Shown here: positions 11,747 through 49,103 of the stretch, one piece after another
Layout of the letters: each line of letters begins with the position of its first letter
How positions within the stretch are numbered: the stretch's first letter is position 1
NCBI GenBank assembly: GCA_023382675.1
Contig: JAHDWN010000014.1
Location: 87,461 to 150,842, forward strand
DNA length: 63,382 nt
From: Anaerolineae bacterium
Lineage (GTDB): Bacteria > Chloroflexota > Anaerolineae > Aggregatilineales > Phototrophicaceae
Reading direction: 5' to 3'
Translations under genes and position numbers: made by a program
Notes under the pieces: model-generated
The model's database searches: none
What the model was told of the DNA's origin: nothing
Seen by the model: the letters and a program-made list of their open reading frames with translations, nothing else

Positions 11747-11804
11747 GACCGGCACATAGGGGATGGCTCGCTTTGAGCCGTGCCTGATCTGGAGGAGTAA
11801 CCGG

Positions 11805-20586: not shown

Positions 20587-20591
20587 TGGGA

Positions 20592-22610
20592 TTACTCATC
20601 AAGGTTCGTGGGAAATCGATCAATCTGCACGGGTACCACGAATGGGTTGGAGTAGGCCTTCATTCGCACGAAGCCCTTATCACTGCTTGCGCTGAATCGA
20701 ACTAGACTGTCCGTGAAGTCCCCAAAATCGTAGTATTTCTTGATTTCTCTGGTCTCGTCTTCGTTGTTCAAGTGGGCGATAAACCAGTTTTGCGTGTTCT
20801 TGAGAATGTTGGAACTAATGGAACTGACTTCTTGCGTAGCATAGACCAAACCCAGGTTGAGTTTCGCGCCTTCCTTCGCAATTCGGTTGTAGATTTGGCT
20901 TAAGTCCTTATCATCCTTCTTAGGGAACAAATTATGCGCTTCCTCGAAGTAGAACTGGATGAAGTTGTTTGGCTTCGCCTTGATAAACCGATCCATCGCG
21001 TCTGCGAAAATCTGGCGACAGATGCGCTCCGAGTAAAGGCTCTGGATATTCGGATCGCCCTGGGACAGGTCAACAATAATGATCTTGCCATTCCGCAGAT
21101 CTTCAATGATCTCCACTTCAAATGGTTTTCCAGTGGTATCTGTATGCAACCCAGCTACATCACGAAGTTTGAGATAGCCTGAAACGGTCGCACTGCCTCC
21201 GGGTCTCGACTTCCGTGTCAGAAAAACAAGAAGCGCCTTCAGGTCTTCGTCAGCCCATTCATGACCCTTCTCAGCTCGATACTTGCTGAAGTAAGGATGA
21301 TCCGCGTAGTTCTCCCAAATGGCGGTGAACCAATTGGCTGCTTCTTCCAGTGTAAGTCCTTGACTCGGATCGTCGCTATTTGCTAAGTCGTTTAGTTCTT
21401 TTGCTCCAGAGAATTTCACTTTGAAACCTTTTGGGATCGTGAACCCTGCTTTATATAAGCAGCACGCGTAGGCGGCGCATTTTCGTGCGTATCGCGTCTT
21501 CGCCGAATAGTCGTTTGGATCTGTCGGTTCGTTAAAATCCACAGATAGGAAGCTACCAACATAATCCGCGGTTTCAGTCGAAAGACGGCTTCTAATGAGT
21601 TCAAAGCCTGATACCATGTCCCGATAAAAGTTGACTTTCATGACCTTGAAATCGGGTTTTTCGAGAACGCTATAGCGGATAACCTTGTCTTTATAGAGTT
21701 CAAAGATTGCCGTTCCCGCATCCTGAAGATTGGAATTGGCGTATTCGCCATTGATGTCAAAGATGATTTGGCCAACGGGATATTTGGGCACGTTGTCATC
21801 CGTAAACGCTTCTAGATTTGAGGCGATCCCGTCAAAGAGTGGGGCATCAAGAACACCTGGAGCCTTGTCACTCATGGTTACGGATGCCTGGATAATCTTC
21901 TTGACAGTGTTTGACTTGCCGGTTCGGGTCATGCCGAACAAAGCACTCCTCTTCCCAAGAAAGTCCTGCGGCGTCACGTACACTTCAACAAGCGGTTCGT
22001 CTACTTGAAATCTACGAGTTGAGCTATATCTCACTTGACCAATTCGAATATCAGTTGGTTTCCCAACAACCTGATCTTCACGGAAATTCACGATAGCGGT
22101 CAGCACGCTGGCATCCGGCTTGATCACGCTGTAGTTATGTGAACTATAGAAGTTTTCCAGATCTGCGCCAAAACGAAGGTGTCGTTCTTGGTCTCGATAG
22201 AACGTGCCAAGGACTCTACACTCAAGCCCTGAAAAGCTGAATTCATATCTTGTGAAGCTATCGAGCTGAGTTTCGTTGCCGCTTGTACGTAGATTGTCCT
22301 TGTAATACTCGATCATCGACGCTATCACGTCATTGTCAGTTGGTAATTTCGTGGGACGCAGAACGCGCAGAAGGATCGCTTCGGAAACGGCCTCCTCGTT
22401 CTCGTAATACGCAATTAGGAACGAGCCCTGCGGAATACCTTTTGCCTTCTGCTTCCACGCGTCTGCCACCAGCAAATGTGCTCTGTCATAGTCCAGGTAG
22501 AAGGGCCGCCCGACAAAACGTCCCGTTTCCCACTCTCCGCTCGCACTGTTTCGCTTGAAGAGATCCGTTGATGCAATCTTGTGGAGGACATCTGCAAAAT
22601 TCAAAGCCAT
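20592..22610 (-). CDS. HerA-type hexameric DNA-translocase ATPase
   Basis: A 672-residue FtsK/HerA-superfamily ATPase. Walker A is GMTRTGKSN (226-234), Walker B with two acids is YFEEAHNLF (554-562), and the sensor Gln motif is YATQEVSSIS (590-599). The N-terminal 200 residues would hold the beta-barrel (HAS-like) domain that precedes the RecA core. HerA rings pump duplex DNA into the NurA nuclease or, in defence systems, drive partner effectors. It starts 17 bases after the methyltransferase stop and ends 5 bases before the NurA start, so all three are one operon. G+C is low: the row 20701-20760 has 26 G/C of 60. Confidence 0.9.
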   Translation of the reverse strand: MALNFADVLHKIASTDLFKRNSASGEWETGRFVGRPFYLDYDRAHLLVADAWKQKAKGIPQGSFLIAYYENEEAVSEAILLRVLRPTKLPTDNDVIASMIEYYKDNLRTSGNETQLDSFTRYEFSFSGLECRVLGTFYRDQERHLRFGADLENFYSSHNYSVIKPDASVLTAIVNFREDQVVGKPTDIRIGQVRYSSTRRFQVDEPLVEVYVTPQDFLGKRSALFGMTRTGKSNTVKKIIQASVTMSDKAPGVLDAPLFDGIASNLEAFTDDNVPKYPVGQIIFDINGEYANSNLQDAGTAIFELYKDKVIRYSVLEKPDFKVMKVNFYRDMVSGFELIRSRLSTETADYVGSFLSVDFNEPTDPNDYSAKTRYARKCAAYACCLYKAGFTIPKGFKVKFSGAKELNDLANSDDPSQGLTLEEAANWFTAIWENYADHPYFSKYRAEKGHEWADEDLKALLVFLTRKSRPGGSATVSGYLKLRDVAGLHTDTTGKPFEVEIIEDLRNGKIIIVDLSQGDPNIQSLYSERICRQIFADAMDRFIKAKPNNFIQFYFEEAHNLFPKKDDKDLSQIYNRIAKEGAKLNLGLVYATQEVSSISSNILKNTQNWFIAHLNNEDETREIKKYYDFGDFTDSLVRFSASSDKGFVRMKAYSNPFVVPVQIDRFPTNLDE

Positions 22611-22627
22611 CAGCTTACTCGCTTCTC

Positions 22628-23596
22628 TTATTCTTGGGCTTTCGCCAGCATTGGATCCTCTAGCCTGATCCTTGCCTGTTCAGAATATCTTTGTAGCTTC
22701 TCAATTGACACCCATTTGCGGTTCAAAAGCTCAGCGACGTACCCCGTGGTATTACTTCCCGAAAATGGGTCAAGCACTATGTCGCCAGGATCCGTAAGGA
22801 ACTGTATGAAGAATGATGCCAAGCCAGGTGGCATTCGTGCAGGATGCGGCGCTATGCCCTTTTCGCGGCACATTCGTGTGAAGTAGTCATTTGAGTTGGT
22901 ATTAGCGATCCGAAAAGCATTGGGTAGCCGAGTATCATCAGTTCCCGCAATTGGCTCCATTTCAAACACGTTGTGAGGAATGCTGCCCCCGTGATCAGTC
23001 AAGAATCCATCTGCGCTAATGATGTGTTCAGATGGTCTTCTACCTGAGTTATAAGATCTGCGTCTCAGGAGCGACTTCATACTCTTGCTATATGGACGTA
23101 GGACTTTTGTGTTATCTGCTTTTGGGTTGTCACTCTTTGCAATCCACCACACATTTGTATAACTATCGGTTGCGCGAATACGTTGGATAGTTACCCATTG
23201 CGCTGGAGAGGGAATGCGTGCTGGGTTATAGCAGATGAACTGTTGGCACAGACGAAGATCGGCGTTTGGAGCGTTGACAAATCCGATCAAGGATTCCAGA
23301 TGAAGTAGAGACTGTACTGGTCGGCCAGGAATCCAGGAGTTGCCAAGCTCAATGACGATAGAACCATCTGGTGTCAGCAATTCTGCAAAGATGTCAGCAA
23401 GGCTAACAAACCAATCCCTGTAGAGTTCGCCAGTTAGATTTCCATAGCTCTTCTTATTGTTCAGCGGGAAGGGAGGAGAAGTAAGAATTAGTTGAACTTT
23501 TCCCGAAAGCCGGCGACCAAGCTTTCCGTTGAGAAGCCGGATCGAATCGCCGATATGGTACTCTCCGAGCGAAGAAGCGTGATCAGGTTTCGGCAT
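22628..23596 (-). CDS. Beta-class DNA methyltransferase (N4-cytosine or N6-adenine)
   Basis: A 322-residue methyltransferase, first gene of the operon. The catalytic motif IV TSPPF (39-43, in VQLILTSPPFP) precedes the SAM-binding motif I DPFSGSNTTG (276-285), so the order is that of beta-class enzymes. Ser/Thr-Pro-Pro at motif IV favours N4-methylcytosine, though some N6-adenine enzymes share it. The middle 150 residues would carry target recognition. No conventional restriction endonuclease is adjacent; instead HerA and NurA follow. It may mark self DNA so that the nuclease pair spares it, which is inference. Confidence 0.9.
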   Translation of the reverse strand: MPKPDHASSLGEYHIGDSIRLLNGKLGRRLSGKVQLILTSPPFPLNNKKSYGNLTGELYRDWFVSLADIFAELLTPDGSIVIELGNSWIPGRPVQSLLHLESLIGFVNAPNADLRLCQQFICYNPARIPSPAQWVTIQRIRATDSYTNVWWIAKSDNPKADNTKVLRPYSKSMKSLLRRRSYNSGRRPSEHIISADGFLTDHGGSIPHNVFEMEPIAGTDDTRLPNAFRIANTNSNDYFTRMCREKGIAPHPARMPPGLASFFIQFLTDPGDIVLDPFSGSNTTGYVAELLNRKWVSIEKLQRYSEQARIRLEDPMLAKAQE

Positions 23597-28287: not shown

Positions 28288-28790
28288 TTGTCTGCCGCTA
28301 GCCGCCGGCGGGCGCGGTTTGCGTAGGGCGCGTCACCGTGCGTCAAGTGTGATGCTGCCGCGATTTAGGAGCAAGATCGGACGCGCGGGGTGACGATGGT
28401 CACTTTTTGACCGGGGGAGGCGCGAGCATACTGGTAGATAGCCGCCTTACGATCTGCATTGCTGGATGCAGGGTTGGCGGGCGTTGACGGACTTTTCACT
28501 TCCTATGATGACTCATCATCAACTAACGCAGGCATCACAGACGTAAGCCCTCGCTCATCGTCGTCAGGTTCTTGTGATGTATTTCACAACTCACGTCGAC
28601 CTTTTTGCGTAATTAGTCATAAGTCATGCCCACCGCGCGTGGGCAAGCCGTGCCGAGCCAGCGACAAGGGGACATGGGAACGCCGGTAAGAAGCGCCGCA
28701 AGCGCGACAGCATCCGGCACGCAGCGCCCGGCACACAGCCAACGACAAGCCTATCCCGCCTCAGACGAGGCTCAAGCGAAAGATGGCTTC
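28288..28790. other. Long leader/intergenic region before the hydrolase and membrane-protein run
   Basis: About 500 bases. It holds a perfect CRP/FNR-type palindrome (28571-28588) and smaller palindromes such as CCCACCGCGCGTGGG near 28628. An in-frame extension of the hydrolase reaches back to 28626, but the protein there is Ala/Ser/Gln-rich and lacks family character. No RNA gene is recognised. Confidence 0.5.
28571..28588. promoter_or_regulatory. CRP/FNR-type binding site
   Basis: TTGTGA and TCACAA are perfect inverted arms with a six-base spacer, the TGTGA-N6-TCACA layout of CRP-family operators. It lies about 200 bases before the hydrolase ATG at 28791, upstream of the multi-gene plus-strand run. 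No strong -10 is seen downstream (CATAAG at 28618-28623 is the best). Confidence 0.5.
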
Positions 28791-30134
28791 ATGACCACAC
28801 GATCAACCTTTCAATCTGCACAGCCGCTGCCGGGCGACGTGCGGACGCCCACGGGCGGCTTGCTGCGCCGTCTCGGTGTCGCTGTACTCACGGTCGTTGG
28901 CATCATCGTCGCGTTGATCCTGGCGCTGCCGGTGCCGCTGCTGTTCATCGCTACGTCTGTGCCGACGCTGGTCGCCATCGCGCTGGCGGCGGTGGACATC
29001 GGCATCGTCATCGCCGTGCTGCGCCTGGGACGGACGCCGGTCGCCGTTGTCGGGGCCTTCGCCGGAATCGTGATCGTCTCCGTCATCGCGATCTGGCTGT
29101 CGCAAGTTCTGGCGTCCACACCGCCGATCGCCCGCGCGGATGGCACTCCAGTCCCCGGCAGCATCGCCGAACTGAGAACCGTCAATCTCAATGGCTCGGA
29201 GCAGTGGATCACCATCCGCGGTTACAACACCGACAATCCAGTGCTGCTGTTCCTGGCCGGGGGGCCGGGCGGCAGCGAACTGGTCATGACCCGGCGCTAC
29301 CTGGGCGACCTGGAGAAACATTTCGTCGTCGTTAACTGGGATCAGCCGGGCACGGGCAAGTCGTATAACGCGGTGGACATCGACAGCCTGACGCCGCAGC
29401 GCTACGTCGATGACGCCTACGCACTGACGGAGTACCTGACCGACCGCTTCGATCAGAGCCGGATCTTCCTGCTGGGCGAGTCGTGGGGCAGCATCCTTGG
29501 CGTCTGGCTGGTGCAGCAGCACCCGGAGTTGTATTACGCCTTCATCAGCTCCGGCCAGATGGTCACGACGACCGAGAACGACGTGCTCGGCTACGAGTTC
29601 GACCTCGACTACCTGGAGCAGCGCGGCGAGAGCGACGCGGCAGAGCGTTTGCGCACGATCGGGCCGCCACCCTACAGCGGCGGCGGCATGATGTGGCGCT
29701 ACATGGACGTGTTCGGCGTGCAGAACGTTTACAGGGACGCGAACGCGCACGGTGAAGGCGTCAGCCACAATCTGATGTTCGACTCGCTGCTCGCGCCCGA
29801 ATATGGCCTGGTCGATAAGGTCAACTGGCTGCGCGGCCTGGTCGATGTCTTCGTCCATGTCTATCCACAGCTTGCCGATCTCGATTTCAGGACGCAGGCG
29901 GCGGAACTGAGCGTGCCGGTCTACTTCATCAAAGGGCGCTGGGATGTCAACGCGATCAATTCGCTGACGGAAGAATACTTTGCCAGCCTCGACGCGCCGC
30001 ACAAGGAGCTGATCTGGTTTGAAGACTCCGCGCATACCCCATTGTGGGACGAGCCGCAGCACTTCGTCGAAGTCATGGTCAATACTGTGATGCGGCAGAT
30101 CCAGCCCGAATGCTGTCGCGGTCGCCGACCCTAG
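28791..30134 (+). CDS. Membrane-anchored alpha/beta hydrolase (proline-iminopeptidase-like)
   Basis: A 447-residue protein starting at ATG 28791. About 100 N-terminal residues hold three hydrophobic segments (LGVAVLTVVGIIVALILALP, LLFIATSVPTLVAIALAAV, VVGAFAGIVIVSVIAIWL). The rest is an S33-like hydrolase: oxyanion block LFLAGGPGGSELV, VNWDQPGTGKS, nucleophile elbow GESWG, a late Asp in KGRWDVNA, and His in FEDSAHTPLWDEP. Related proteins are aminopeptidases or esterases. It opens the cluster of DUF4386, YdjM-like and flavodoxin genes. Confidence 0.88.
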   Translation: MTTRSTFQSAQPLPGDVRTPTGGLLRRLGVAVLTVVGIIVALILALPVPLLFIATSVPTLVAIALAAVDIGIVIAVLRLGRTPVAVVGAFAGIVIVSVIAIWLSQVLASTPPIARADGTPVPGSIAELRTVNLNGSEQWITIRGYNTDNPVLLFLAGGPGGSELVMTRRYLGDLEKHFVVVNWDQPGTGKSYNAVDIDSLTPQRYVDDAYALTEYLTDRFDQSRIFLLGESWGSILGVWLVQQHPELYYAFISSGQMVTTTENDVLGYEFDLDYLEQRGESDAAERLRTIGPPPYSGGGMMWRYMDVFGVQNVYRDANAHGEGVSHNLMFDSLLAPEYGLVDKVNWLRGLVDVFVHVYPQLADLDFRTQAAELSVPVYFIKGRWDVNAINSLTEEYFASLDAPHKELIWFEDSAHTPLWDEPQHFVEVMVNTVMRQIQPECCRGRRP

Positions 30135-30179
30135 CTTAGCCAGCGTTAATGATATAACCCACAGAAATGAGTTGAAACT

Positions 30180-30911
30180 ATGTCCCAAGCTCTCCCCATG
30201 ACTTCTACGAGTCCCAAGACGGCTCGGCCTGGCAGTGATACCGCTGCTTCATCCTGGGCGACGCTCTACATACTCGGTGCGCTGGGCGCGTTGTTCTCCT
30301 TCGTGCTGATCCCGGTGCAGTTGATCGTCTTCTCGACGACGCCAGAGCCGACGACGGCGCTCGGCTGGTTCACGCTGTTTCAGGACAACAAACTGCAAGG
30401 CTTGCTGTCCTTTGAAATCCTGTTTGCCATCAATTCGGCCTTCAGCGTTGCGACGGCGCTCGCGCTCTACGTCGCCCTCCGGCACGTCAGCCCATCGTGG
30501 ATGGCGATCTTCCTGGCGTTCAGCCTGGTCGGCGCGGTCTGCATCGTCATCGCCCGCCCGGCCATCGACATGCTCTATCTGAGCGACCAGTACGCGGCGG
30601 CGACCGATGATGCGCAGCGAGCGCTGTTCCTGGCGGCAGGCGAGACGTTGGTCGCGCTCCGTCACGGCATGGCCTTCCACGTGAGCTACAACCTGGCGAA
30701 CATCGGGCTATTGATCGCCCCGCTGGTAATGCTGCGCACCAACATCTTCAACAAAGTCACTGCCTATGCAGGCATTCTGTCGGGTGTGATCGCGTTTGGC
30801 CTGTACGTGCCGGACATCGGCATTTACATCTCGGTCATTTCGGTGCTGTTCTACGCGGTCTGGCTGATTCTGATCGCTCTCAAGCTGTGGCAGCTTGGGC
30901 GCGCGTCATAA
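30180..30911 (+). CDS. DUF4386 membrane protein (first copy)
   Basis: A 243-residue protein with six or so membrane segments. It shows DUF4386 features: an N-terminal YILGALGALFSFVLIPVQL, a WFTLFQDNKLQGLLSFEILF loop, and the conserved SDQYAAATDDAQRALFLAAGETLVAL segment between later helices. The function of the family is unknown. Two more copies lie at 33934 and 35594, sharing the QYAAA...AAGE block. Confidence 0.85.
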   Translation: MSQALPMTSTSPKTARPGSDTAASSWATLYILGALGALFSFVLIPVQLIVFSTTPEPTTALGWFTLFQDNKLQGLLSFEILFAINSAFSVATALALYVALRHVSPSWMAIFLAFSLVGAVCIVIARPAIDMLYLSDQYAAATDDAQRALFLAAGETLVALRHGMAFHVSYNLANIGLLIAPLVMLRTNIFNKVTAYAGILSGVIAFGLYVPDIGIYISVISVLFYAVWLILIALKLWQLGRAS

Positions 30912-31024
30912 CCGGGAAATGATGCCATAGCGCACCTGCGGATGCCGGGCTGTTATCCAAAGTGTGGGTGACTGCCTGGCAGGTGTTCGATTTCGGCGCG
31001 TTATGGTTGTCAGGAGAATGGATT

Positions 31025-31531
31025 GTGGACCCATTGGCACATGCCTCAATCGGGTTGATGGCAAAGGGCGTTGCTCCGAAGGCACCCCTCTGGGCGCTGG
31101 TGGCAGCGACCCAGTTACCAGACTTGCTGTCGTTCGGATTCTTTGCCGTCGGTCTGGAACATGGCGCCGAGACCCGGCTCGACTTTGAACACGGCCTCCA
31201 GTATGTGAGCCAGCCGTCGATTCCGTGGTCGCACGGGTTCTTCATGTGCGTCGTCTGGTCGCTGCTGGTTATGGCAATCGCTTTCTACTTGTCTCGGAAT
31301 CGCCGGACGAGCATCGTCATCGGACTCATGGTCATGAGCCATTGGCTGCTGGATTTCATCGTCTATCTCTATGTCCCAGTCCTGTTTGATAACTCGATCT
31401 GGACAGGACTTGGCCTCATCACGTCAGTGCCTGGCCTGGTGATCGGCATCGCCCTGGAGATCGCCCTGATCGTTGGCGGCATCGCTGTCTATTGGGGCAG
31501 GCGAAAGGCGAGCGCCGTCCATGCGTACTAG
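31025..31531 (+). CDS. YdjM-like membrane hydrolase-family protein (first copy)
   Basis: A 168-residue, four-to-five-pass membrane protein. GTG 31025 follows AGGAG and begins VDPLAHASIGLMAKGVAPKA, like family members. The blocks LPDLLSF, SIPWSHGFFMCVVWSL, RRTSIVIGLMVMSHWLLDFI carry the His and Asp residues that define the LexA-binding-type YdjM/metal-dependent membrane hydrolase family. Activity is unproven. A close paralogue is at 33293. Confidence 0.75.
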   Translation: MDPLAHASIGLMAKGVAPKAPLWALVAATQLPDLLSFGFFAVGLEHGAETRLDFEHGLQYVSQPSIPWSHGFFMCVVWSLLVMAIAFYLSRNRRTSIVIGLMVMSHWLLDFIVYLYVPVLFDNSIWTGLGLITSVPGLVIGIALEIALIVGGIAVYWGRRKASAVHAY

Positions 31532-31600
31532 GACCGCTCTTTACAGGCGTTTGTCTACAAATTGAGGGGATAGACGAAGTTGCGTCGAAAGGAAACACGC

Positions 31601-32053
31601 ATGTCAGCGAATGTTGGCGAAGGAATAATCAATCAGTCAGGCAGAGAACAGCGCCGCCGGATAATCCGGTATGTCGCGGCGGCGCTGGCTGCCGTCACGG
31701 CAGTCATCTACGTGATGATCGGCTTGCATCTGGTGTCTGTGCTCGATGGCAACGCCGACCAGACCTGGGCGCTCGCCCCGGCAGCCGCCTATGCGCTGGG
31801 TGCAGTCCTGCTCGTCATCTATGACCGCCGCCTGCTCTGGATTCTGGGGGCGGCGCTCCAGGTGTTTGTCATCTTCACCTACTTCAACCTGGCCTTGCAG
31901 CGGACACCCGCTTACGAAGTCTGGGGCATCGTGCTCCGCGTCGTCCAGTTGCTGATCTTGATCGCGCTGATTTATCTCGAAGTTCGCCTGCCGCTGAAGC
32001 AAACGGACAGCAGCAGTTCTGGCGCGCGCGAACCGCTCCAGAGCCACCGTTAG
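31601..32053 (+). CDS. Four-pass membrane protein of unknown function
   Basis: A 150-residue protein; ATG 31601 follows AAAGGAAA. Four hydrophobic segments are visible (AAALAAVTAVIYVMIGLHL, ALAPAAAYALGAVLLVIYD, LLWILGAALQVFVIFTYFNL, VLRVVQLLILIALIYLEV). Hydrophilic N- and C-termini probably face the cytoplasm. No family is recognised. It is part of the same tightly spaced plus-strand run. Confidence 0.65.
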   Translation: MSANVGEGIINQSGREQRRRIIRYVAAALAAVTAVIYVMIGLHLVSVLDGNADQTWALAPAAAYALGAVLLVIYDRRLLWILGAALQVFVIFTYFNLALQRTPAYEVWGIVLRVVQLLILIALIYLEVRLPLKQTDSSSSGAREPLQSHR

Positions 32054-32070
32054 AGACAGAGAGGAATGTC

Positions 32071-32556
32071 ATGACTACCACTAAACCCTTGCCTACCGTT
32101 GAACATTACGACGAAGAGCTAAACATTGGGCGGCGCGTGGGCGAGATGTTTGTCATCGTCGGGCTGCTGGCGCTCGCCGGTTTCTTCGTCCTGCACCAGA
32201 CACGCGAGACAGGCTTTTTCACCGACAAATTCGGTGCGCCGGAGATGTTCTTGCTCTACGCACCGCTCTTGTTCTCACTGCTCGACGCCGGTGTGCAGAT
32301 CGTGACTGGTGATCGCCATCTGGCGCGCCCGTTTGAAGCGATCAGCGGCCTGCTCATGGGGTTGGCGGCGCTTTGGTTCCTGATCAACTTCCCGTTCGAA
32401 TTCGCGCATCTACCGGATGTGCTGCCGGAGGGTCTGCGTTTCCTGCTGGCCTGGATCACGAATGACCTCGCCAAGATACCGCTGGTCATTCAGCTCATCG
32501 TTGGCCCGATCACCGCGCTGGTGGCGCTGTGGCGGTTCTTCGTAGGCCGCCGTTAG
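32071..32556 (+). CDS. Four-pass membrane protein of unknown function
   Basis: A 161-residue protein starting 18 bases after its neighbour, with AGAGAGGAATGTC as ribosome site. The N-terminal 30 residues are polar (VEHYDEELNIGRRVGEM). Four membrane segments follow, with short loops. No recognised family. Cotranscription with the preceding gene is likely. Confidence 0.65.
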   Translation: MTTTKPLPTVEHYDEELNIGRRVGEMFVIVGLLALAGFFVLHQTRETGFFTDKFGAPEMFLLYAPLLFSLLDAGVQIVTGDRHLARPFEAISGLLMGLAALWFLINFPFEFAHLPDVLPEGLRFLLAWITNDLAKIPLVIQLIVGPITALVALWRFFVGRR

Positions 32557-32718
32557 GGCAGCCTCAGAGTCAATGATTTCAGGTGTCTTTCATCCCCACC
32601 CCTGAACCTGCGGTTCGTCCCCTTCCTCATCGCGATTGGGAGGGGATTTAGGGGAGGGGACGCAATCAACCGTGCTGCCCTGGATTTGCACCAGGCTGGC
32701 GGTTCATTTCACTGTGTA

Positions 32719-32734
32719 AGTGTCATTAGACACT
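32719..32734. promoter_or_regulatory. Inverted repeat at the ribosome site of the flavodoxin gene
   Basis: AGTGTC and GACACT flank ATTA and end two bases before the AGGGGG ribosome site of the gene at 32749. This could be an operator that blocks transcription or a small hairpin that masks translation. The preceding 190 bases also hold imperfect CCCC/GGGG inverted repeats (32594-32670). Confidence 0.4.
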
Positions 32735-32748
32735 AAGGGGGAAATAAG

Positions 32749-33279
32749 ATGTCCGCACTGACGCTTGTCACCTATGCCACCCGTTACGGATCAACCCACG
32801 AGGTTGCCGAGGCGATCGCAGCGACGCTGCAAAAGAGCGACGTTGTGGTCGAGATTCAGCCGATGCAGGAAGTGCGTTCGCTGGAAGGCTATCACGCGGT
32901 TGTGATGGGCGCGCCGATCTTCATCGGCAAATGGCACAAGGAGGCGCACCGCTTCCTGGCACGCCACCAGGAGTCTCTCACGCAGCGACCGCTGGCGCTG
33001 TTCGCGCTCGGCCCCACCAGCCGCGACGCGCAGGAAATGGAAGGCTCGCGCGCCCAACTCGACCGTGATCTGGAGAAGTATCCCTGGCTGAAACCGGCGA
33101 CGCAGGCGATGTTCGTCGGCAAATACGACCCGGCAGCGCTGCGCTTCCCGGACAATCTGCTGGCGATTCTGCCGGCAAGCCCGCTCCACAACATGCCTGC
33201 CAGAGACGAACGCGATTGGGAGGCGATCCGCGCCTGGGCGCTGAGCATCGCCGACATGATGAAGGAGACCATCGCCTAG
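32749..33279 (+). CDS. HemG-type flavodoxin-domain protein (first copy)
   Basis: A 176-residue flavodoxin-fold protein. The FMN phosphate loop is TYATRYGSTHEVAEAIA at the N-terminus, followed by AVVMGAPIFIGKWHKEA and the terminal RDWEAIRAWA. This matches the flavodoxin_5/HemG family, whose best known member is menaquinone-linked protoporphyrinogen oxidase. No heme genes are nearby, so a general FMN redox role is equally possible. A paralogue lies at 37017. Confidence 0.82.
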   Translation: MSALTLVTYATRYGSTHEVAEAIAATLQKSDVVVEIQPMQEVRSLEGYHAVVMGAPIFIGKWHKEAHRFLARHQESLTQRPLALFALGPTSRDAQEMEGSRAQLDRDLEKYPWLKPATQAMFVGKYDPAALRFPDNLLAILPASPLHNMPARDERDWEAIRAWALSIADMMKETIA

Positions 33280-33292
33280 CGGGGGAGCATCT

Positions 33293-33937
33293 ATGTATTT
33301 CGGACACATTGCAGCGGGGCTGGCGGCGAAGTCCGTGGCCCCGAAAGCCTCTCTGGGAACGCTGCTCATCACGGCCACGGCGCTGGACACCCTGAGCGGC
33401 GTCTTCCTGGTTACAGGTGTGGAGAGTCTCGGCGTCGACGCGCGCCTGGGGTGGTCGCATGGGTTGTTCATGTCAGTTGTGTGGTCGATTGCGGCCTATG
33501 CGCTTGCCCTGCTCGTCACCCGTGACCGTCGCACAAGCCTCGTCATCGGGCTCCTGATCTTCAGCCATTGGCTGCTAGATTTCATCAGTCACCCAATGCT
33601 ATCGACCACGCCGGATCTGCCGCTGCTCTTCGAAGGATCGCCGAAGGTGGGCCTAGGCTTGTACAGCACCATCCCCGGCGCTCTGATCGGCGACTTCGGG
33701 CTGCTGGCGGCCGGGATCACGGTCTACTTGACCCGGACGTGGGCAAAGGATAGCACGGGGAGATGGGCGTTCTGGGCAATGATCGCTTTTCTCGTGCCGC
33801 TGGCATTCGCCACGTCTTTGCCGGGGCTGCTTGTCGTCCTGCCGATGTTAGCTGTCAATCTGTTGCTGCCGTTCGGCACCTGGGTCGATCGTCATCGCGA
33901 TTTGCTGCCGCAATCAAGAAGGGTGATGCAGACATGA
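33293..33937 (+). CDS. YdjM-like membrane hydrolase-family protein (second copy)
   Basis: A 214-residue membrane protein that begins MYFGHIAAGLAAKSVAPKAS and shares WSHGLFMSVVWSI, RRTSLVIGLLIFSHWLLDFI with the copy at 31025. Five to six membrane segments; the C-terminal pair (FWAMIAFLVPLAFATSL and VVLPMLAVNLLLPFG) is extra relative to the first copy. It follows the flavodoxin by 13 bases and its stop overlaps the next start (ATGA). Function unknown. Confidence 0.78.
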   Translation: MYFGHIAAGLAAKSVAPKASLGTLLITATALDTLSGVFLVTGVESLGVDARLGWSHGLFMSVVWSIAAYALALLVTRDRRTSLVIGLLIFSHWLLDFISHPMLSTTPDLPLLFEGSPKVGLGLYSTIPGALIGDFGLLAAGITVYLTRTWAKDSTGRWAFWAMIAFLVPLAFATSLPGLLVVLPMLAVNLLLPFGTWVDRHRDLLPQSRRVMQT

Positions 33938-34692
33938 CGACGCACACGACTCATGCGGCCGGCATGAGTACCGATAAACGCAATCTCTACACGATTGGCG
34001 GCGCGGCGGCCCTGTTCTGTGCGCTGATGTACGTGATTGCCCTCGCAGTCTACGTCCCGGCCAACAGCGCGGGGCCAGCGCCCGCCAGCGTGCTCGAATG
34101 GTTCACGGTGTTTCAGGATAACGCGCTCACCGGCCTGTTCTTCCTGGGGTTTGCCGACATCGTGATCATGATCGCCTGGGTGCCGATGATCCTCGCGCTC
34201 TACGGCGCGCTCAGACGGCGCGACTCCGCGTGGGCGGCGGTCGCTGTGCCGCTCGTCATGGTGGGCGTTGCGGTCTACCTCACCACCAACACGGCGTTCT
34301 CAATGCTCACGCTCAGCAACCAGTACGCGGCGGCGACGAACGACGCGGAGAAGGCCAGCATTCTGGCGGCAGGGCAGACGCTGATCGCGATCAGCCAGGG
34401 CACGGGCGGCCAGTATCTGGGGATGCCACTGGCCTGGCTCGGCGGCTTGATCGTCTCGCTGGTCATGCTGCGCAGCGACGATTTCAGCCGATTGACGGCC
34501 TGGGTCGGTATCCTGGGCCTGGGACTCTTGCTGGCAAGTGTGCCCTTCGCCGGGTACACAACCGCCGGTGAACCGACCGTCATCGTGAGCGCCATCGTCG
34601 CGGTGACGTATGTCGGCGGCGGCCTACTGTCGCTGGCGTGGTATATCCTGATCGGCTTGCGGTTGCTCAAACTACGGACTCACGCAGGTTAG
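33934..34692 (+). CDS. DUF4386 membrane protein (second copy)
   Basis: A 252-residue protein; ATG 33934 overlaps the previous stop by four bases, so the two are coupled. It repeats the DUF4386 pattern: LYTIGGAAALFCALMYVIA, WFTVFQDNALTGLFFLGFAD, LSNQYAAATNDAEKASILAAGQTLIAI and LMYVxGILG-type C-terminal helices. Six membrane segments. Function unknown. Confidence 0.85.
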   Translation: MTTHTTHAAGMSTDKRNLYTIGGAAALFCALMYVIALAVYVPANSAGPAPASVLEWFTVFQDNALTGLFFLGFADIVIMIAWVPMILALYGALRRRDSAWAAVAVPLVMVGVAVYLTTNTAFSMLTLSNQYAAATNDAEKASILAAGQTLIAISQGTGGQYLGMPLAWLGGLIVSLVMLRSDDFSRLTAWVGILGLGLLLASVPFAGYTTAGEPTVIVSAIVAVTYVGGGLLSLAWYILIGLRLLKLRTHAG

Positions 34693-34710
34693 TTATCCAA
34701 GGAGATAACC

Positions 34711-35577
34711 ATGCAAAATCGCCCTGATGCTTACACGTCCAGCCGCCTGCCGGTCGCACGCGATCTGACGATGGCCTACGTATTGTCGCTGATCGTCGCG
34801 CTGCTCGTGGCCGTGGCTTCGGTCGGCGGGATCGTCTACCAGACGACGCTCTACCCGGCGGAACAGCTCGTCGATCAGGTCGGCAACGACGCGCTCAACC
34901 TCGTGATCGGGCTGCCATTCCTGCTCGGTTCAATGTGGTTCGCCCGGCGCGGCAGTCTGCTTGGCCTGCTCTTCTGGCCTGCGGCGCTGCTCTACCTCCT
35001 CTACGTCTACGTGATCTATCTCACGGGCGTGCCGTTCAACGCGCTGTTCCTGGTCTACGCCATTCTCGTCACGTTGTGCGCGTACGCGATCATCGGCCTG
35101 GTCGCCAGCATTGATGGCGCGGCGGTGCGCCGGCGCTTCGAGGGCGTCGTGCCCGCGCGCTGGATCGGCGGCTTGCTGGTTGTGTTCGCGGTGCTCTTCG
35201 GCGCGTATCAGGTGTCCGAGATCATCAGCGCTATTTTCAACAGCACGACGGTCGATCAACTGCTGCTCGCAACCGGCATCGGCGATCTTACGGTTGAATG
35301 CCCGGCGCTGCTGGTTGCCGGGATCTTGCTCTGGCAGCGCAAGCCGCTTGGCTACGTCGCGGGCGCAGGGCTGCTGCTGCAGATTGGCCTGCTGTTCGTC
35401 GGGCTGCCCATCGCCGGAATCCTCGGCGGGCCTTTGACGGGCACGGCTGCTAATACGAGCCTCGTCGCTTTTGGCGCTATCGGGCTGCTGCCGCTGGCGC
35501 TGCTTATCCCTTACGTGCGCGGCGCACGGTCAGGCGGCGTCACGCGGCGCCCGGATCAGCGTGCCTTCGCCCAGTGA
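34711..35577 (+). CDS. Multi-pass membrane protein of unknown function
   Basis: A 288-residue protein with about eight hydrophobic segments, starting after AAGGAGATAACC. An early periplasmic-looking loop is TTLYPAEQLVDQVGNDALNLVIG. The C-terminal tail is basic (RGARSGGVTRRPDQRA). I recognise no family, but it sits between two DUF4386 genes and is probably cotranscribed with them. Confidence 0.7.
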   Translation: MQNRPDAYTSSRLPVARDLTMAYVLSLIVALLVAVASVGGIVYQTTLYPAEQLVDQVGNDALNLVIGLPFLLGSMWFARRGSLLGLLFWPAALLYLLYVYVIYLTGVPFNALFLVYAILVTLCAYAIIGLVASIDGAAVRRRFEGVVPARWIGGLLVVFAVLFGAYQVSEIISAIFNSTTVDQLLLATGIGDLTVECPALLVAGILLWQRKPLGYVAGAGLLLQIGLLFVGLPIAGILGGPLTGTAANTSLVAFGAIGLLPLALLIPYVRGARSGGVTRRPDQRAFAQ

Positions 35578-35593
35578 GATGAGGGGCAAGCAA

Positions 35594-36328
35594 GTGACGC
35601 ATATTCAACGAGAAGACTCGACCTGGACCCCGCTCTACCGCATCGGCGGCGCGGCTGCCGTGATCGCAGCGTTGTTATTCAGGCGCAACCTCGGCGCAGA
35701 AGTCACGCTCCTCAGCGGGCGGATGCCGCCTGTCGCCGTGAGCGACTGGCTGGCGCTGCTGGCGAATGACAGGCTGCTGGGGTTGGCTTTTCTTAACGTC
35801 TTCGACATCGTCAACTATGCCCTGGTGGGTCTGATCTTCATCGGCCTGTATGCCGCCCTCAGGCGCAGCTATCCAGGCACTGCGGGGCTGGCGGCCTGTT
35901 TCGGCCTGATCGGGGGCGGGGTCTATTTCGCTTCGAACCAGGCCTTCGCCATGCTGTCGCTGAGCAACCAGTACGCGGCGGCGAGCGAGGCGCAGCGCGC
36001 TACGCTGGTGGCAGCCGGGGAAGCGCTGTTGGCGATCGACCAGGGCACCGGCATGTATGCGAGCCTGTTTCTGGTGACGCTGGCGGGTCTGATCTTTTCC
36101 GTCCTTATGCTGCGCAGCCGCGTTTTCAACCGGCTGACGGCTTACATCGGCATTCTGGCGCACGTCCTGCTCATGGGCTACTTCGTTTTGCTGCCAATCG
36201 CGCCGTCGCTGGTGTTCCTGCCTCACGTTCTCGCCGCCGTGCCGCTGGTGATCTGGCAGCTTCTGAGCGGGTGGCGGTTAATCCAACTGGCGCGGGATGT
36301 GCCGAAAGGAGCCGCCGATGCGCGTTGA
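35594..36328 (+). CDS. DUF4386 membrane protein (third copy)
   Basis: A 244-residue protein. GTG 35594 has GAGGGG at good spacing; ATG 35579 is an alternative that adds five residues. It shares LYRIGGAAAVIAALLF, a shortened DWLALLANDRLLGLAFLNVFDIV loop, and LSNQYAAASEAQRATLVAAGEALLAI with the other copies. Six membrane segments. Its stop overlaps the next start by about 11 bases. Confidence 0.82.
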   Translation: MTHIQREDSTWTPLYRIGGAAAVIAALLFRRNLGAEVTLLSGRMPPVAVSDWLALLANDRLLGLAFLNVFDIVNYALVGLIFIGLYAALRRSYPGTAGLAACFGLIGGGVYFASNQAFAMLSLSNQYAAASEAQRATLVAAGEALLAIDQGTGMYASLFLVTLAGLIFSVLMLRSRVFNRLTAYIGILAHVLLMGYFVLLPIAPSLVFLPHVLAAVPLVIWQLLSGWRLIQLARDVPKGAADAR

Positions 36329-36992
36329 TCACCTACCTGCCGGTCAAGCCAGGGCAGGTACACGCGCGCCGTGTGCCACCCGGATCGCCGTCTCGGTCGT
36401 CGGGACTTACGCAGGGCTGCTCGGCGCTGCGCATGGCTTTTTCGAGATCCGCCAGGGCGCCCTTGTCCCGGCTAATATCGCAATCAATGCTATTGGCGCG
36501 CCATGCCAGCCGCAGACGGCCGCGCACGCCTGCTGGCCCGCGCTGACGCTGATCCCGAATCTACGGACGAGCGGCAGCCTTGCCATCCTCATTTCGCTGG
36601 CTGTGCTGGCCTGGTCGGCGTTCTTCATCACGCGGGAGCGGCGCAGACCGATTCTGTTCATGCTGGCACTGGTGCTGCTCGTGGTTGGCGGCGGTTTCCT
36701 GCCGCCGATCTACGCCATGATGGCCGCCACTGCCGCCACGCAGATCGATACGGCGGGCCGGTGGTGGCGCGCGCGCCTGTCTGATCGGGCGCTGATCCGG
36801 CTGGCCACGCTGTGGCCGCGGGTATTCGTCGCCTATTTCGCCTGGATCGCGATCCAGACATTCTTCAGCGGCGCGCTCAACACTTTCCTGCTCGGCATCG
36901 GGCCGCTGATCGTCCCGGTCGAGCTTGGCGTCCTGGCGCTGTCGATTATCAGCGCTTTTGCCTATGACATTCATCAGACAACCGTCACTTAG
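36318..36992 (+). CDS. Multi-pass membrane protein, paralogue of the gene at 37581
   Basis: A 224-residue protein; AAAGGAG precedes ATG 36318, which lies inside the end of the upstream gene. It has a YAGLLGAAHGFFEIRQGALVP segment and LTLIPNLRTSGSLAIL, matching the pattern MSHGFFETQQGN and FTLIPNFLVTGIAAI of the protein at 37581. Five to six membrane helices. Family unknown to me. Confidence 0.7.
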   Translation: MRVDHLPAGQARAGTRAPCATRIAVSVVGTYAGLLGAAHGFFEIRQGALVPANIAINAIGAPCQPQTAAHACWPALTLIPNLRTSGSLAILISLAVLAWSAFFITRERRRPILFMLALVLLVVGGGFLPPIYAMMAATAATQIDTAGRWWRARLSDRALIRLATLWPRVFVAYFAWIAIQTFFSGALNTFLLGIGPLIVPVELGVLALSIISAFAYDIHQTTVT

Positions 36993-37016
36993 CATCATAC
37001 AGGAGCAATAATCACA

Positions 37017-37571
37017 ATGTCCAACACCATCCTTGTCACTTATGCCACCCGGACAGGTTCCACAAAAGGTGTGGCCGAGGCAATTGGCAAAACGCTGTCC
37101 GAAAGCGGCACGCTGGTCGATGTGCTGCCGATGCAAGACGTCAAAGACATCGCGCCCTACGACGCGGTAGTTGTGGGCAGCGCCATCCGCGCCGCTGCCT
37201 GGCTGCCGGAAGCAATGGAGTTTGTACGCACGCACCGCGCGGCGCTGGCAAGGAGGCCGGTTGCCATCTTCGCGGTGTGCATGACGCTCGCCATGAAGAA
37301 GGGCGACTACCGCAATCAGGTATCGCAGTGGCTGGCGCCGGTGCGCGCGCTGGTGAACCCGGTGAGTGAGGGCTTGTTCGCGGGGATTCTGGACATCAGC
37401 CAGGTGCCGACGTTTAGTGACCGGCTCAAGTTTCGCATGAGCGTCATGGCGGGCGTCTGGTCGGAGGGCGATCACCGCGACTGGGAGGCGATTCGCGCCT
37501 GGGCAGCGGAACTGCCTGCGAAGTTACAGCGCTCGAACGCGCCGGATGAGTCACCATTCACACTTCGGTGA
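37017..37571 (+). CDS. HemG-type flavodoxin-domain protein (second copy)
   Basis: A 184-residue flavodoxin. The FMN loop is TYATRTGSTKGVAEAIG, followed by AVVVGSAIRAAAWLPEA and the terminal HRDWEAIRAWAAEL. It is similar along its length to the copy at 32749 but has a Met-rich middle (FAVCMTLAMKKGDY). As with that copy, a HemG-like role is possible but unsupported by neighbours. It is placed between the two paralogous multi-pass proteins. Confidence 0.82.
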   Translation: MSNTILVTYATRTGSTKGVAEAIGKTLSESGTLVDVLPMQDVKDIAPYDAVVVGSAIRAAAWLPEAMEFVRTHRAALARRPVAIFAVCMTLAMKKGDYRNQVSQWLAPVRALVNPVSEGLFAGILDISQVPTFSDRLKFRMSVMAGVWSEGDHRDWEAIRAWAAELPAKLQRSNAPDESPFTLR

Positions 37572-37580
37572 GAGGCATAT

Positions 37581-38243
37581 ATGAATCGCACAACACATAT
37601 CATCTTCGCGACGATAGGGATCGTGCTCGCCATCAGCGGCATGAGCCATGGTTTCTTCGAGACGCAGCAGGGGAATACGCCGACCAATGGTCTGATCATT
37701 AACGCCATCGGCGACGCGCAAAAGATGTGGGAGTACGGCGGTGAAACGGCCTTTACGCTCATCCCCAACTTCCTGGTGACGGGCATCGCAGCAATTGCCG
37801 TCGGGATTGCCATTATCATCTGGTCGCTGGGTTTTTTGCGGACGAAGCACGGCCCGACGGGCTTTCTGCTGCTCTTCATCCTGCTGTTCCTGGTGGGCGG
37901 CGGCATCGGCCAGGTGCCGCTCTTCCTGGTGGCCTGGGCTTTCGGCACGCGGGTTAACAAGCCGCTGACGTGGTGGCGCAGAGCGCTGCCGGAAGCCGTT
38001 CGCGAGCCGCTCTCCAAAATCTGGCCGGTCACTCTGGCTGTAGGCGCGCTGTTGTTTCTGTTGGCGCTCGCCATCGCCATTTTCGGCGATTTCCTCGGCA
38101 TTGGCGATCCAGAGCAGTTGATCGGCATTGTCTTCGCCTCGCTCGGCGTTGGCCTGGCGTTCTTTGTTCTGAGCTACGTGTCCGGGTTTGCGCACGACAT
38201 CGAGGAGCAGGCGGACTCGCGTCTGCGCCCGGCGATGAGCTGA
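37581..38243 (+). CDS. Multi-pass membrane protein, paralogue of the gene at 36318
   Basis: A 220-residue protein starting 10 bases after the flavodoxin. It has an N-terminal helix, ISGMSHGFFETQQGNTPTNG, then GETAFTLIPNFLVTG, a hydrophobic pair (FLLLFILLFLVGGGIGQVPLF), a polar stretch with KPLTWWRRALPEAVRE, and two last helices. It shares this organisation with the 36318 protein. No assigned family. Confidence 0.7.
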   Translation: MNRTTHIIFATIGIVLAISGMSHGFFETQQGNTPTNGLIINAIGDAQKMWEYGGETAFTLIPNFLVTGIAAIAVGIAIIIWSLGFLRTKHGPTGFLLLFILLFLVGGGIGQVPLFLVAWAFGTRVNKPLTWWRRALPEAVREPLSKIWPVTLAVGALLFLLALAIAIFGDFLGIGDPEQLIGIVFASLGVGLAFFVLSYVSGFAHDIEEQADSRLRPAMS

Positions 38244-38310
38244 TGACCGCCCCAGGCCATCGCCGCAAAGTGATCTATACTCGGCGTCCTGCTCAGTGAC
38301 GGAGGAATGT

Positions 38311-39147
38311 ATGACCGGTCAAACGCATCGCTTTCAGGTTGGGGACTTCACCTGCATCGCCATCTGCGACGAAGGCGTGCCGGATACCATCCAGGGCCTC
38401 TATGCCAACGTGTCCGCTGATGACCTGGCGAGCGCCGCTCGCTCGCTGGGCTATGACATCGATTCATTTCCGATGTCGTGCACGCCGCTGTTTGTCGATA
38501 CCGGCACGCAGCGGGTGCTGATCGACGCCGGGCGGCCCCAGCTTGAGGCGGGCGGTGATGGCTATCTCCTGCGCGGGCTGGACGCGGCAGGCATCGCGCT
38601 CGACTCAATTGACGTGGTGATGCTCACGCACGGCCACGGCGATCACATCGGCGGGCTGACGGATGCCAACGGGCGGCACTATTACGCCAATGCGCGCTAC
38701 CTGATGTGGAAAGCGGAGTGGGACTACTGGACGGATGAGGCGACACTGGCGCAGTTGGACACCAAACGGGCGGCGGTGCGGCGAGCATCGTTCGGCGCTA
38801 TGGCGGATCGTGTCGAGCTGCTGACGACGGAAGGGGAGATCGCGCCGGGCATCCGCTGTGTGCCGATGCTTGGGCACACGCCGGGGCACTGCGGCGTGCT
38901 CATCGAGTCGCGCGGCGAGCGGCTGCTCGACATCGTCGACGCCATCCACACGCCGATGCAGATGCAGCATCCTGACTGGCACTGCCGGTTCGACGTTGCG
39001 CCAGCCGTGGCCGTAGAGACGCGCCGCGCTGTGTTCGCGCAGGCGGCGGCGGACAATCTGTTGACGCTCGGCTTCCACCTGCCGTTCCCCAGCCTGGGCC
39101 ACGTTGTTGCGGACGGCGCTGCCTGGCGCTGGCAACCGTTGGCGTGA
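38311..39147 (+). CDS. MBL-fold metallo-hydrolase
   Basis: A 278-residue metallo-beta-lactamase-fold hydrolase; GGAGG precedes ATG 38311. The dinuclear metal motif HGHGDH is present (LTHGHGDHIGGL), with later ligands in LGHTPGHCGV and the Asp/His of DIVDAIHTPMQMQHPDWH. Family members hydrolyse lactones, thioesters or nucleotides. It ends the plus-strand run and converges with a phosphotriesterase-like gene. Substrate unknown. Confidence 0.92.
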   Translation: MTGQTHRFQVGDFTCIAICDEGVPDTIQGLYANVSADDLASAARSLGYDIDSFPMSCTPLFVDTGTQRVLIDAGRPQLEAGGDGYLLRGLDAAGIALDSIDVVMLTHGHGDHIGGLTDANGRHYYANARYLMWKAEWDYWTDEATLAQLDTKRAAVRRASFGAMADRVELLTTEGEIAPGIRCVPMLGHTPGHCGVLIESRGERLLDIVDAIHTPMQMQHPDWHCRFDVAPAVAVETRRAVFAQAAADNLLTLGFHLPFPSLGHVVADGAAWRWQPLA

Positions 39148-43567: not shown

Positions 43568-43645
43568 CCGTTTCAAGCCTGCGCTGACCGGAGTCGTGGT
43601 ATGATCGAAAAGCACTTCGATCTCCCACCGCGAGGCGGGTGTTAC

Positions 43646-46600
43646 ATGTCTGAATATGATGTTTTTGTTTCTTACTCCCGCAAAGACAGCGAATTTGTCC
43701 GCCAACTGGTTGATGCTCTGAGTGAGCAGCAACGCGCCGTCTGGATCGATTGGCGTGGTATCGATTATTCCACCAAGTGGTGGGAAGAAATCTGCTACGG
43801 CATCGACCGCGCCGACAACATACTCGTCGTTATCAGCCCGGATTCGCTCAATTCTGTCTACTGCCACCGCGAAATCGAGCACGCGCGCAAGCGTGGCAAA
43901 CGGATCATCTGTCTGATCTACCGCCAGATTGACGAAGGCACGCTGATCGGCGGCTGGTATACCGACGAGACCATGCACCCCATCGAGATGATGGCGCGCG
44001 AAAACTGGGAACACCTCAAGACGATCCAGTTCATCTCGTATCCCAAGCTGGGCGACCTCGCGCCGACGATCCAGACGCTGCTCGCCAATATCGACACCGA
44101 CCCGGAGTGCAAGCGCGCGCACACGCTGCTTTTGCAGCAGACGCAGTCGTGGATCGACGCCGGTCGCAGCCCTGGCTACCTGCTAAAAGATGAGGCCTTG
44201 CAAACGGCGGAAACGCGCCTGAACGACTGCCGTGAGCACGTCGTCTTCAGCGCCGAGCAGGAAGCATTCGTCAGTGCCAGCCGCCGCGCCGAAGATGAAG
44301 AAGCCCGCCGCATCGCCGAACAGGAAGCCCGCACGCGCGCGCTCGAAGAACAGAGCCGCCGGGCTGCCGAAGCGAGCCAGCGAGCTGCGCAAGAAAATGC
44401 GCGGCTGGGGCGGACGACGCGCCGCTACCGCATCACGGCGGTGCTGCTGGCGCTGATCGGGGTGATCGCCATCGCGCTGACGGTGATCGCTGCCCAGCAG
44501 TTGGCGAACGCGGTCGCCGAGGTAGCGGATGCGGAACAGTACGCATCGTCGCTCAACCTGGCGTCGAACGTCGCTGAAATCCTGAGTGACGAACGCGGCA
44601 ATCAGGAGACGGCGGCCTTGCTGGCGCTGCATTCACTCGATCAGATCTACACCCCGAACGCAGATAGGGCGCTCAACCAGGCCGTCGATCAACTGCGCAC
44701 AGTGCGGACGCTGGATAACCACGGCGTCACGATGCGCGACATCGTCTACAGCCCGGATGGACTGCATCTGGCGACTGCTGGTGATGACGGCAACGTGTAT
44801 GTCTGGGATGTGGCGACCGGTGACCTGGAACTCGCTCTGAGTGGACACCAGCCGAGTGTGCGGAGCGTCGCCTACAGCCCGGACGGGCGTTATCTGGTCA
44901 GCGCCGGTGACGATGGCGTGGCCCGCGTCTGGGATGCCGAAAGTGGCGCAGCGCAGTTCCAGACGCGGCGGCGCAGCGACAGCCTGTATGACGCCATCTA
45001 CAGCCCGAATGGCCGCTATATCATGACACTCGATAATGAGGGGGTGGTGCGCACCTGGTCTGCGGCGACCGGTCTGGTGCAAGGCGGTGTGTCCGTGCGC
45101 CCCCACGATACGGCGATTGCCTACAGCCCGGATCATAACTTCATCGCTACCGGAGATATTGAGGGAGTAGTGTATATCTGGAGCGCCTTTGATGGCTCCT
45201 ACGTGGCGTCCATACGCGCGCATGACAGTACGATCCTGAGCATTACCTTCAGCCCGGACAGCGCCTACGTGCTGAGTGCCGGTGAAGATTTGACGGCGCG
45301 CCTGTGGCAGCTCGAATTTCCTGGCCGCTCCCTGGGCAAGATTCAGCCCGGATCTGCGCCGGCGGTTCCAGCCAGACAGGAGTCACAGGTCGTTTTGCAC
45401 CTCGTGCATGAGTTTCGGCATCAGGCGCGCGTGCACCGCGCCATCTTCGATCCCAATCAAGAGCTGATCATCACCGCCAGCGGCGATGCCACCGTCCGAG
45501 TCTGGGATGCGAACGACTTCTCACTGCTGCATAACTTCGTTGAGCACCGGGGGCAGGCACTTGCGGTCGCCTACAGCCCGATTGAAAGTCAGATTACATC
45601 CGCGAGCGCCGATGGCAGCCTGCGCGTCTGGTCACCGTACCGCTACCCAGATGCACCTTTATGGGCGTCCGTCGGCGATCAGCACGTCTTTGCGCTCGCG
45701 CTTGATCCGGACGGAATGCGGGCAGCCGCCACGAGCGAGGATGGTTCCGTGACCCTATGGAACATCGAAGATGGCGTGATCGTGAATCGCATAGCCAGTC
45801 GCTACCATGTTGTTTCGCCGGATGTCGCCTACGATCCATCCGGAAGCCGCGTAGTGACGACGACCGACAGCTACGCACGGGTGTGGAGCCTGGATGGTGA
45901 CGAACTGTTCACGCTCGAGGAACAGGCCGAACGCTCGAACTGGATCTACAGTGCGGTGTTCAGCCCGGATGGCCGTTACATTGCCACGGCCAGCGAGCAG
46001 GGCTGGGTGCGCCTCTGGGATGCGCAGACGGGCGAGTCAGTGCGCCATGTCTTTGAAGCAGCAGACGAGGAACGGAGTGTCGCCTTCAGCCCCGATGGCA
46101 GTCGTCTGGCGGCGGCGGGCGACGATGGCCTGGCACGAGTCTGGGATGTGGGCACCGACACGCTGCTGCTGACGTTGGCAGGCCATCACAACGGCATCCT
46201 GAGCGTCGCTTTCAGCCCGGACGGGCGCTCTCTGGTGACGGCCAGCCAGGACATGACCGCACGCATCTGGGATGCTGAGACGGGTGTTGAGCTGCAGGTG
46301 CTCGCAGGCCACCGGTCGTTGGTCAAGAGCGCGGTCTTCAGTCCCGATGGTCGCTTGGTCGCGACTGTCGGTTATGATGCCACGGCGCGGATCTGGGATG
46401 CCGAGACGGGTGCATGGCTGCGGACAATCGCCTGGAGCGGCGACAACATGACCGACGTGGCCTTCACACCCGATGGGCAGTATCTGCTGACGACCGATTG
46501 GGGCGGCAACGTGCGCCAATGGGATGTTGATGTGAGCGCGCTGATGGAGTACGCCTGCACGCGTATCTTTGCCGATCTGCCGGCGTCTGACCGGCTGCTT

Positions 46601-49080: not shown

Positions 49081-49103
49081 GGGGGATCGCTGGGGAAATA
49101 ACC

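Follow-up and report, generated by a model that had tools for sequence, protein, structure and literature searches.

The described protein closest to the flavodoxins considered here, which are small electron carriers that bind flavin, is HemG, the menaquinone-dependent protoporphyrinogen IX dehydrogenase (NF008316; PF12724), with which they share a Flavodoxin_5 domain. YdjM-like proteins, which resemble the YdjM inner-membrane family (PF04307), are predicted membrane metal-dependent hydrolases, and SHG and SHW..DF are presumably the conserved membrane His/Asp motifs that define this family. We know of no function for DUF4386 (PF14329), and no mention of it by name was found in the literature searched. 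Here, we describe a run of 14 genes, all on the plus strand, in which members of these families occur together. The run spans positions 28626-39147 of a 63,382-nt stretch of DNA (the window, whose numbering is used throughout) on contig C14 of a 6.4-Mb Chloroflexota genome that is 96% complete.

The run (genes A to N; Table 1) includes four families of paralogs, namely three DUF4386 proteins (B, H, and J), two YdjM-like proteins (C and G), two Flavodoxin_5 proteins (F and L), and two members of an unnamed multi-pass membrane family (K and M; hereafter K/M). Three further multi-pass proteins (D, E, and I) have no paralog in the run, which ends in an alpha/beta hydrolase (A) on one side and a metallo-beta-lactamase-fold protein (N) on the other. 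Our analyses reveal that the run is a real, uncharacterized, and modular gene neighborhood with a recurrent flavodoxin-membrane protein pair, and they suggest that most of its doubled genes are old copies of separate origin and not recent duplicates. The original prediction, made from the DNA letters alone, had recognized the same copy numbers, the short spacing, and several overlaps, all of which stand. Its start of the run at 28791 proved to be an internal ATG of a 502-amino acid frame that opens at 28626, and its description of the flavodoxins as HemG-type holds only in that HemG is their nearest curated model.

Identity and origins of the doubled genes

Families were assigned with the Pfam gathering cut-offs (27.6 bits for DUF4386, 29 for YdjM, and 27 for Flavodoxin_5). 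The three DUF4386 proteins and both flavodoxins exceed theirs (Table 1), the former with 35-46 bits, unlike other DUF4386 proteins in relatives that reach 184.6 bits. The longest frame of C matches Pfam YdjM only partially and below the cut-off (20.5 bits) and G has no such match, its YdjM-like label deriving from homology to C (42% identity); the SHG and SHW..DF motifs are invariant in the four YdjM-like sequences aligned. Neither K nor M matches a Pfam family over its cut-off, yet the two are related (31% identity, E 1.8e-12), and the K/M alignment (five rows) has one invariant histidine as well as an invariant glutamate in an HG[FY]FE motif near the N-terminus. A search with hhalign for a single superfamily behind the membrane proteins detected no clear relation, with probabilities of at most 5.1% in four family pairs (all pairings of the thin alignments A1-A4 except A1-A3 and A1-A4).

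The occurrence of four families in two or three copies each within 10 kb would fit duplication in place of a flavodoxin-membrane unit in this lineage, as the original prediction proposed. The paralogs share 40, 32.5, and 40% pairwise identity within DUF4386 and 39% between F and L. Phylogenetic reconstruction, with minimum lengths of 180 amino acids for DUF4386, 120 for YdjM-like, 170 for K/M, and 125 and 90 for a first and a second flavodoxin tree, argues against such duplication. A single clade of the three DUF4386 proteins was rejected (p-AU 1.7e-9; 26 rows, in a tree that contains long rows and has just seven of 23 inner branches starred), as was a clade of K and M (p-AU 1.9e-12; 33 rows). 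The nearest relative of K is the copy in a same-genus genome (G002; 71-73% identity) and that of M is in genome G013 (62%). Likewise, F and L are placed in two different starred clades, of 10 rows (SH-aLRT 100) and 32 rows (SH-aLRT 99), respectively, in a quick 108-row tree with SH-aLRT support only; the split is recovered by another quick tree, of 110 rows, from which seven divergent rows of the first were dropped. Both F and L have closer relatives in other taxonomic families than each other. The YdjM-like tree, with five rows, leaves a common local origin of C and G undecided.

The order of genes in the run also contains no repeating unit, and the membrane partner next to the flavodoxin differs, with F adjoining the YdjM-like G and L standing between K and M. 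Moreover, because the nearest relative of J (57% identity) adjoins an F-clade flavodoxin at locus L076 of G044, a genome that belongs to another family, the recurring elements are pairs and single genes, not one repeated unit. Collectively, these observations make duplication in place highly improbable; joint duplication of paired copies is not borne out for DUF4386, K/M, or the flavodoxins, and is undecided for the YdjM-like pair alone.

Comparison with G002 reveals turnover at the same locus, where the flanking sequence can be aligned piecewise between 27364 and 43565 and the copy of A is 76% identical. B-C are missing from that genome, in which F and the 3' end of I are separated by only about 100 bp; in the window, this interval is occupied by G, H, and most of I. 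A remnant of I remains there (a 129-column match to its 3' end at 80% identity), which points to a loss in G002. A methyltransferase gene stands at the position of J and two periplasmic-binding-protein genes at that of M.

Recurrence of the families in other genomes

To evaluate co-conservation, the families were searched separately in 61 genomes (that of the window and 60 relatives), excluding the window and the seed contigs G002:C80, G026:C142, and G041:C297. Five families were counted (flavodoxin, K/M, DUF4386, I, and YdjM-like), a neighbor being a member of another of the five within 5 kb, and expectations assumed uniform positions and ignored contig ends. The counts drew on 26 of 30 rows of one search (two pieces of G044:C32 were merged, and G050:C449:2373-2579, G060:C538, and G019:C36 were dropped) and on 99 flavodoxin rows of another. 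Neighbors were identified for five of 10 K/M genes (0.21 expected), 10 of 23 DUF4386 genes (0.31 expected), and three of 10 I genes (0.15 expected), and not for the one YdjM-like gene (0.04 expected). These counts show that the membrane families lie near one another and near some flavodoxins, and that most flavodoxins sit elsewhere.

Several clusters illustrate the combinations that occur (L056 was dropped here as the same place as L037). A 4.6-kb locus in G050 (L078) begins with a truncated flavodoxin and ends with a weak match to another truncated flavodoxin; between them lie K/M, DUF4386, a small membrane protein, a quinone-reductase-like enzyme (193 bits against the PIG3 quinone-reductase model, below its cut-off of 296.8), a protein with four transmembrane segments, and a second DUF4386. 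A locus of about 14 kb in G013 (L073) encodes a flavodoxin, I, DUF6544, a second I, K/M, and a quinone-reductase-like enzyme, and one in G044 (L075) encodes three DUF4386 proteins and I. Among 29 named loci found with flavodoxin L, 19 of which are from Chloroflexota, one combines DUF4386, a YdjM-like protein, a short-chain dehydrogenase/reductase, and a flavodoxin (L053), another has two DUF4386 proteins and a flavodoxin (L055), and a profile adds one weak DUF4386 in a third (L051). The D-E-flavodoxin order also occurs in G057 (L025), E being present in both G002 and G057, and relatives of I adjoin flavodoxins in L044, L046, and L063.

In a class-wide draw of 298 genomes, with at most 10 candidates scored per genome, K/M was present in at least 18, and 17 K/M loci were fetched from the 15 of these that lie outside the set of relatives (G108:C296 was left out). 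At eight of the 17, K/M has an immediate flavodoxin neighbor on the same strand, with gaps of -31 to 32 bp, and the flavodoxin stands first in seven of these eight pairs; the L-M pair of the run has the same order and a 9-bp gap. At least one of eight pool families (the recurrent gene set described below) was detected at 13 of the 17 loci. The other four are L160, L162, L168, and L169, of which L168 and L169 are weak K/M matches and L160 and L168 lie on contigs shorter than 4 kb. Since K/M proteins from the M side of the tree have partners in three flavodoxin clades, namely those of L (L029) and F (L154) and a further one (L153), the trees indicate that flavodoxin and K/M partners are exchanged rather than co-inherited. 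In keeping with this, the label for association requires 18 changes on the flavodoxin tree, at least eight of them forced by starred branches. Thus, of a picture in which the copies have unrelated origins and lack co-conservation elsewhere, the first part was found, whereas co-conservation is present, both in these eight K/M loci and as clusters in other families.

Genes for MalT/LuxR-type regulators (PF17874 with PF00196) also recur near DUF4386. A strong MalT-type gene stands within 5 kb of at least nine of 55 DUF4386 genes, each time in the same orientation, against an expectation of 0.44. The count compares 48 Pfam rows from outside the window and seven others with 88 of the higher-scoring MalT-type rows (at most 28 candidates scored per genome), with tandem copies counted separately and the short pieces G050:C192, G050:C28, and G060:C474 left out. 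A MalT-like frame of at least 380 amino acids occurs at five of the 17 class-wide K/M loci, a sample without a background count.

A fourth DUF4386-related gene is encoded elsewhere in the genome of the window (L089; G000:C17:43000-56000). It was matched by the profile of the window clade and not by PF14329, and lies downstream of a MalT-type regulator beside several quinone-reductase-like genes.

Interpretation and rival explanations

We suggest that the run belongs to an accessory island in which genes are acquired, lost, and exchanged, drawn from a pool common across this Chloroflexota class. The pool would include a HemG-like flavin mononucleotide (FMN) flavodoxin that is not HemG, DUF4386, K/M, I, YdjM-like proteins, D/E, and a few enzymes, with MalT-type regulators near some DUF4386 genes elsewhere. 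This genomic account, a turnover-prone island with exchangeable flavodoxin and membrane modules, is very probably correct. As to mechanism, L and M, like F-clade flavodoxins and K/M in other genomes, may work together, with the flavodoxin shuttling electrons between a reductant in solution and a site in the membrane that would be formed by, or lie near, the multi-pass partner and would most simply be the quinone pool. The variety of partners could then correspond to different substrates or signals. The quinone-reductase-like enzymes of L073 and L078 favor this proposal, and at L157 genes for subunits of a 2-oxoacid oxidoreductase flank the flavodoxin-K/M pair on both sides (L157:3451-7577), the single hint of an electron source. 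We advance the redox mechanism, which we infer from gene content, tentatively, as a possibility that falls short of being probable. The best overall explanation, an island of exchangeable modules that is probably redox-linked in function, could prove right or wrong with about equal chance. It is less likely that these genes represent an undescribed membrane redox class, in which K/M, a conserved multi-pass protein, would repeatedly have been joined by FMN flavodoxins from three or more clades and by exchangeable DUF4386, I, and YdjM-like subunits, in some genomes under MalT-type control, to transfer electrons between carriers in the cytosol and the membrane.

Several observations weigh against the best overall explanation. 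Only five of 93 flavodoxins in the 61-genome survey have a neighbor from another family (0.30 expected), 23 of the 29 named flavodoxin loci contain no other window family (tblastn, 1e-4; several contigs are short), and five of 10 K/M, 13 of 23 DUF4386, and seven of 10 I genes, together with the only YdjM-like gene, lack such a neighbor. The class-wide loci were found through K/M, and their pairs therefore enlarge the association label on the flavodoxin tree. The window itself yielded no MalT-type gene. Structure prediction adds little: the AlphaFold2 model of DUF4386 (H; pLDDT 84.9) is helical throughout and has no clear fold match, a fold search having returned mostly seven-helix receptors and rhodopsins (Foldseek E at least 0.3; Z at most 9.5, a range that, according to the tool, helical bundles can attain through common arrangement alone), and the K/M model (pLDDT 50.8; three rows) is too poor for interpretation.

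An alternative explanation is that the locus is a permissive spot that collects small membrane genes, which share habitat, strand, and regulators without a joint function. The rapid turnover relative to G002 between fixed flanks, the many unrelated families, and the flavodoxins that mostly stand apart would all be expected of such a spot; recurrence of the same pairs elsewhere, in other families, closely spaced and with one order prevailing, and the neighbor enrichment among the 61 genomes would not. We consider this a serious possibility, if one that probably does not hold. Membrane-lipid or hydrophobic-compound metabolism, with the flavodoxin as an accessory, is rather unlikely. Hydrolase A, CAAX-type proteases, and a phospholipid-methyltransferase-like (PEMT-like) protein do occur in or beside the clusters, and a hydrolase role is attributed to YdjM-like proteins: an Rce1-like gene adjoins the flavodoxin in L048 and L153 and lies three genes on in L154, a PEMT-like gene adjoins it in L045, and homologs of A stand beside a flavodoxin in L141 (G027) and within the flavodoxin-K/M locus L157. 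Each such gene was nevertheless seen at only one to three loci.

In favor of the flavodoxins being HemG, with a cluster that would serve heme synthesis, no other NCBIfam model matches either protein better. F and L are unlikely to act as HemG because their scores (58.1 and 53.2 bits) are far below the cut-off of 142 and because a HemY-type oxidase gene (265.6 bits, cut-off 97.85) lies about 1.3 kb from the ferrochelatase gene on contig C23 of the same genome and could supply the protoporphyrinogen oxidation step. Unlike HemG, such flavodoxins occur in several copies per genome and with membrane partners, and G044, with five flavodoxin and four K/M matches, has no ferrochelatase match. We regard a function in heme synthesis as very improbable, and naming such flavodoxins 'HemG' is probably a mistake here. 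With the exchangeable-module reading, the duplication account is replaced by a testable one, in which K/M, I, D, E, and DUF4386 share neighborhoods with flavodoxins in several Chloroflexota families, and the flavodoxin-K/M pair offers a compact starting point for assigning a first function.

Layout of the run and other features of the window

Table 1. Genes of the run and the longest gap between them. Gaps, in bp to the next gene, follow the chosen starts; negative values are overlaps.
Feature	Description	Position	Strand	Evidence	Gap
A	Alpha/beta hydrolase, S33-like	28626..30134	+	Pfam Hydrolase_4 50.3 bits	45
B	DUF4386 copy 1	30180..30911	+	Pfam 46.4 bits	113
C	YdjM-like copy 1	31025..31531	+	GTG start chosen; longest frame from 30962	69
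D	Small multi-pass protein	31601..32053	+	No Pfam family over cut-off	17
E	Small multi-pass protein	32071..32556	+	No Pfam match	192
Gap	Longest gap inside the run, before F	32557..32748	.		
F	Flavodoxin 1	32749..33279	+	Flavodoxin_5 87.0 bits	13
G	YdjM-like copy 2	33293..33937	+	Homology to C	-4
H	DUF4386 copy 2	33934..34692	+	Pfam 35.8 bits	18
I	Unnamed multi-pass family, about 8 hydrophobic segments (hydropathy)	34711..35577	+	No Pfam match	1
J	DUF4386 copy 3	35579..36328	+	Pfam 43.0 bits	-11
K	Multi-pass K/M family copy 1	36318..36992	+	No Pfam match	24
L	Flavodoxin 2	37017..37571	+	Flavodoxin_5 92.9 bits	9
M	Multi-pass K/M family copy 2	37581..38243	+	Homology to K	67
N	Metallo-beta-lactamase-fold hydrolase	38311..39147	+	Pfam Lactamase_B 54.2 bits	

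Eight of the 13 intergenic gaps are 24 bp or shorter, including all of those from F to M and both overlaps, and spacing makes it plausible that F-M form one operon. The gap before F is a candidate boundary between A-E and F-M; its sequence has no second copy within the window by short-word BLAST. Scans for promoters and terminators yielded no clear excess over shuffled sequences (2 versus 2.7 and 10 versus 8.7, respectively). Hydropathy indicates about four hydrophobic segments in A, and N scores 130.6 bits against an AidB-type lactonase model, below its cut-off of 360.

Among the cluster proteins B, E, I, L, and M, no match to a PADLOC model of anti-phage defense was detected. In a search for mobile carriage of J, L, and M, M had no match in the plasmid collection and J had one weak match; L had two weak matches in the phage collection, to Salmonella records annotated 'putative protoporphyrinogen oxidase'.

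Elsewhere in the window, an Rce1-like CAAX protease is encoded at 11763-12518, 16 kb before the cluster, and its family is also represented in or beside L048, L153, and L154. Three minus-strand genes at 19255-23596, largely within a low-GC patch (about 0.49), encode an uncharacterized 444-amino acid protein, a HerA-like ATPase, and an N6/N4 DNA methylase, and look like an acquired defense or modification island. Downstream of the run, a 1277-amino acid DUF4062 protein with low GC3 (49077-52907) partially matches the PADLOC PD-Lambda-4 model, and a 1017-amino acid protein with WD40 repeats (43601-46651) has an N-terminus that weakly matches TIR-like PADLOC models.

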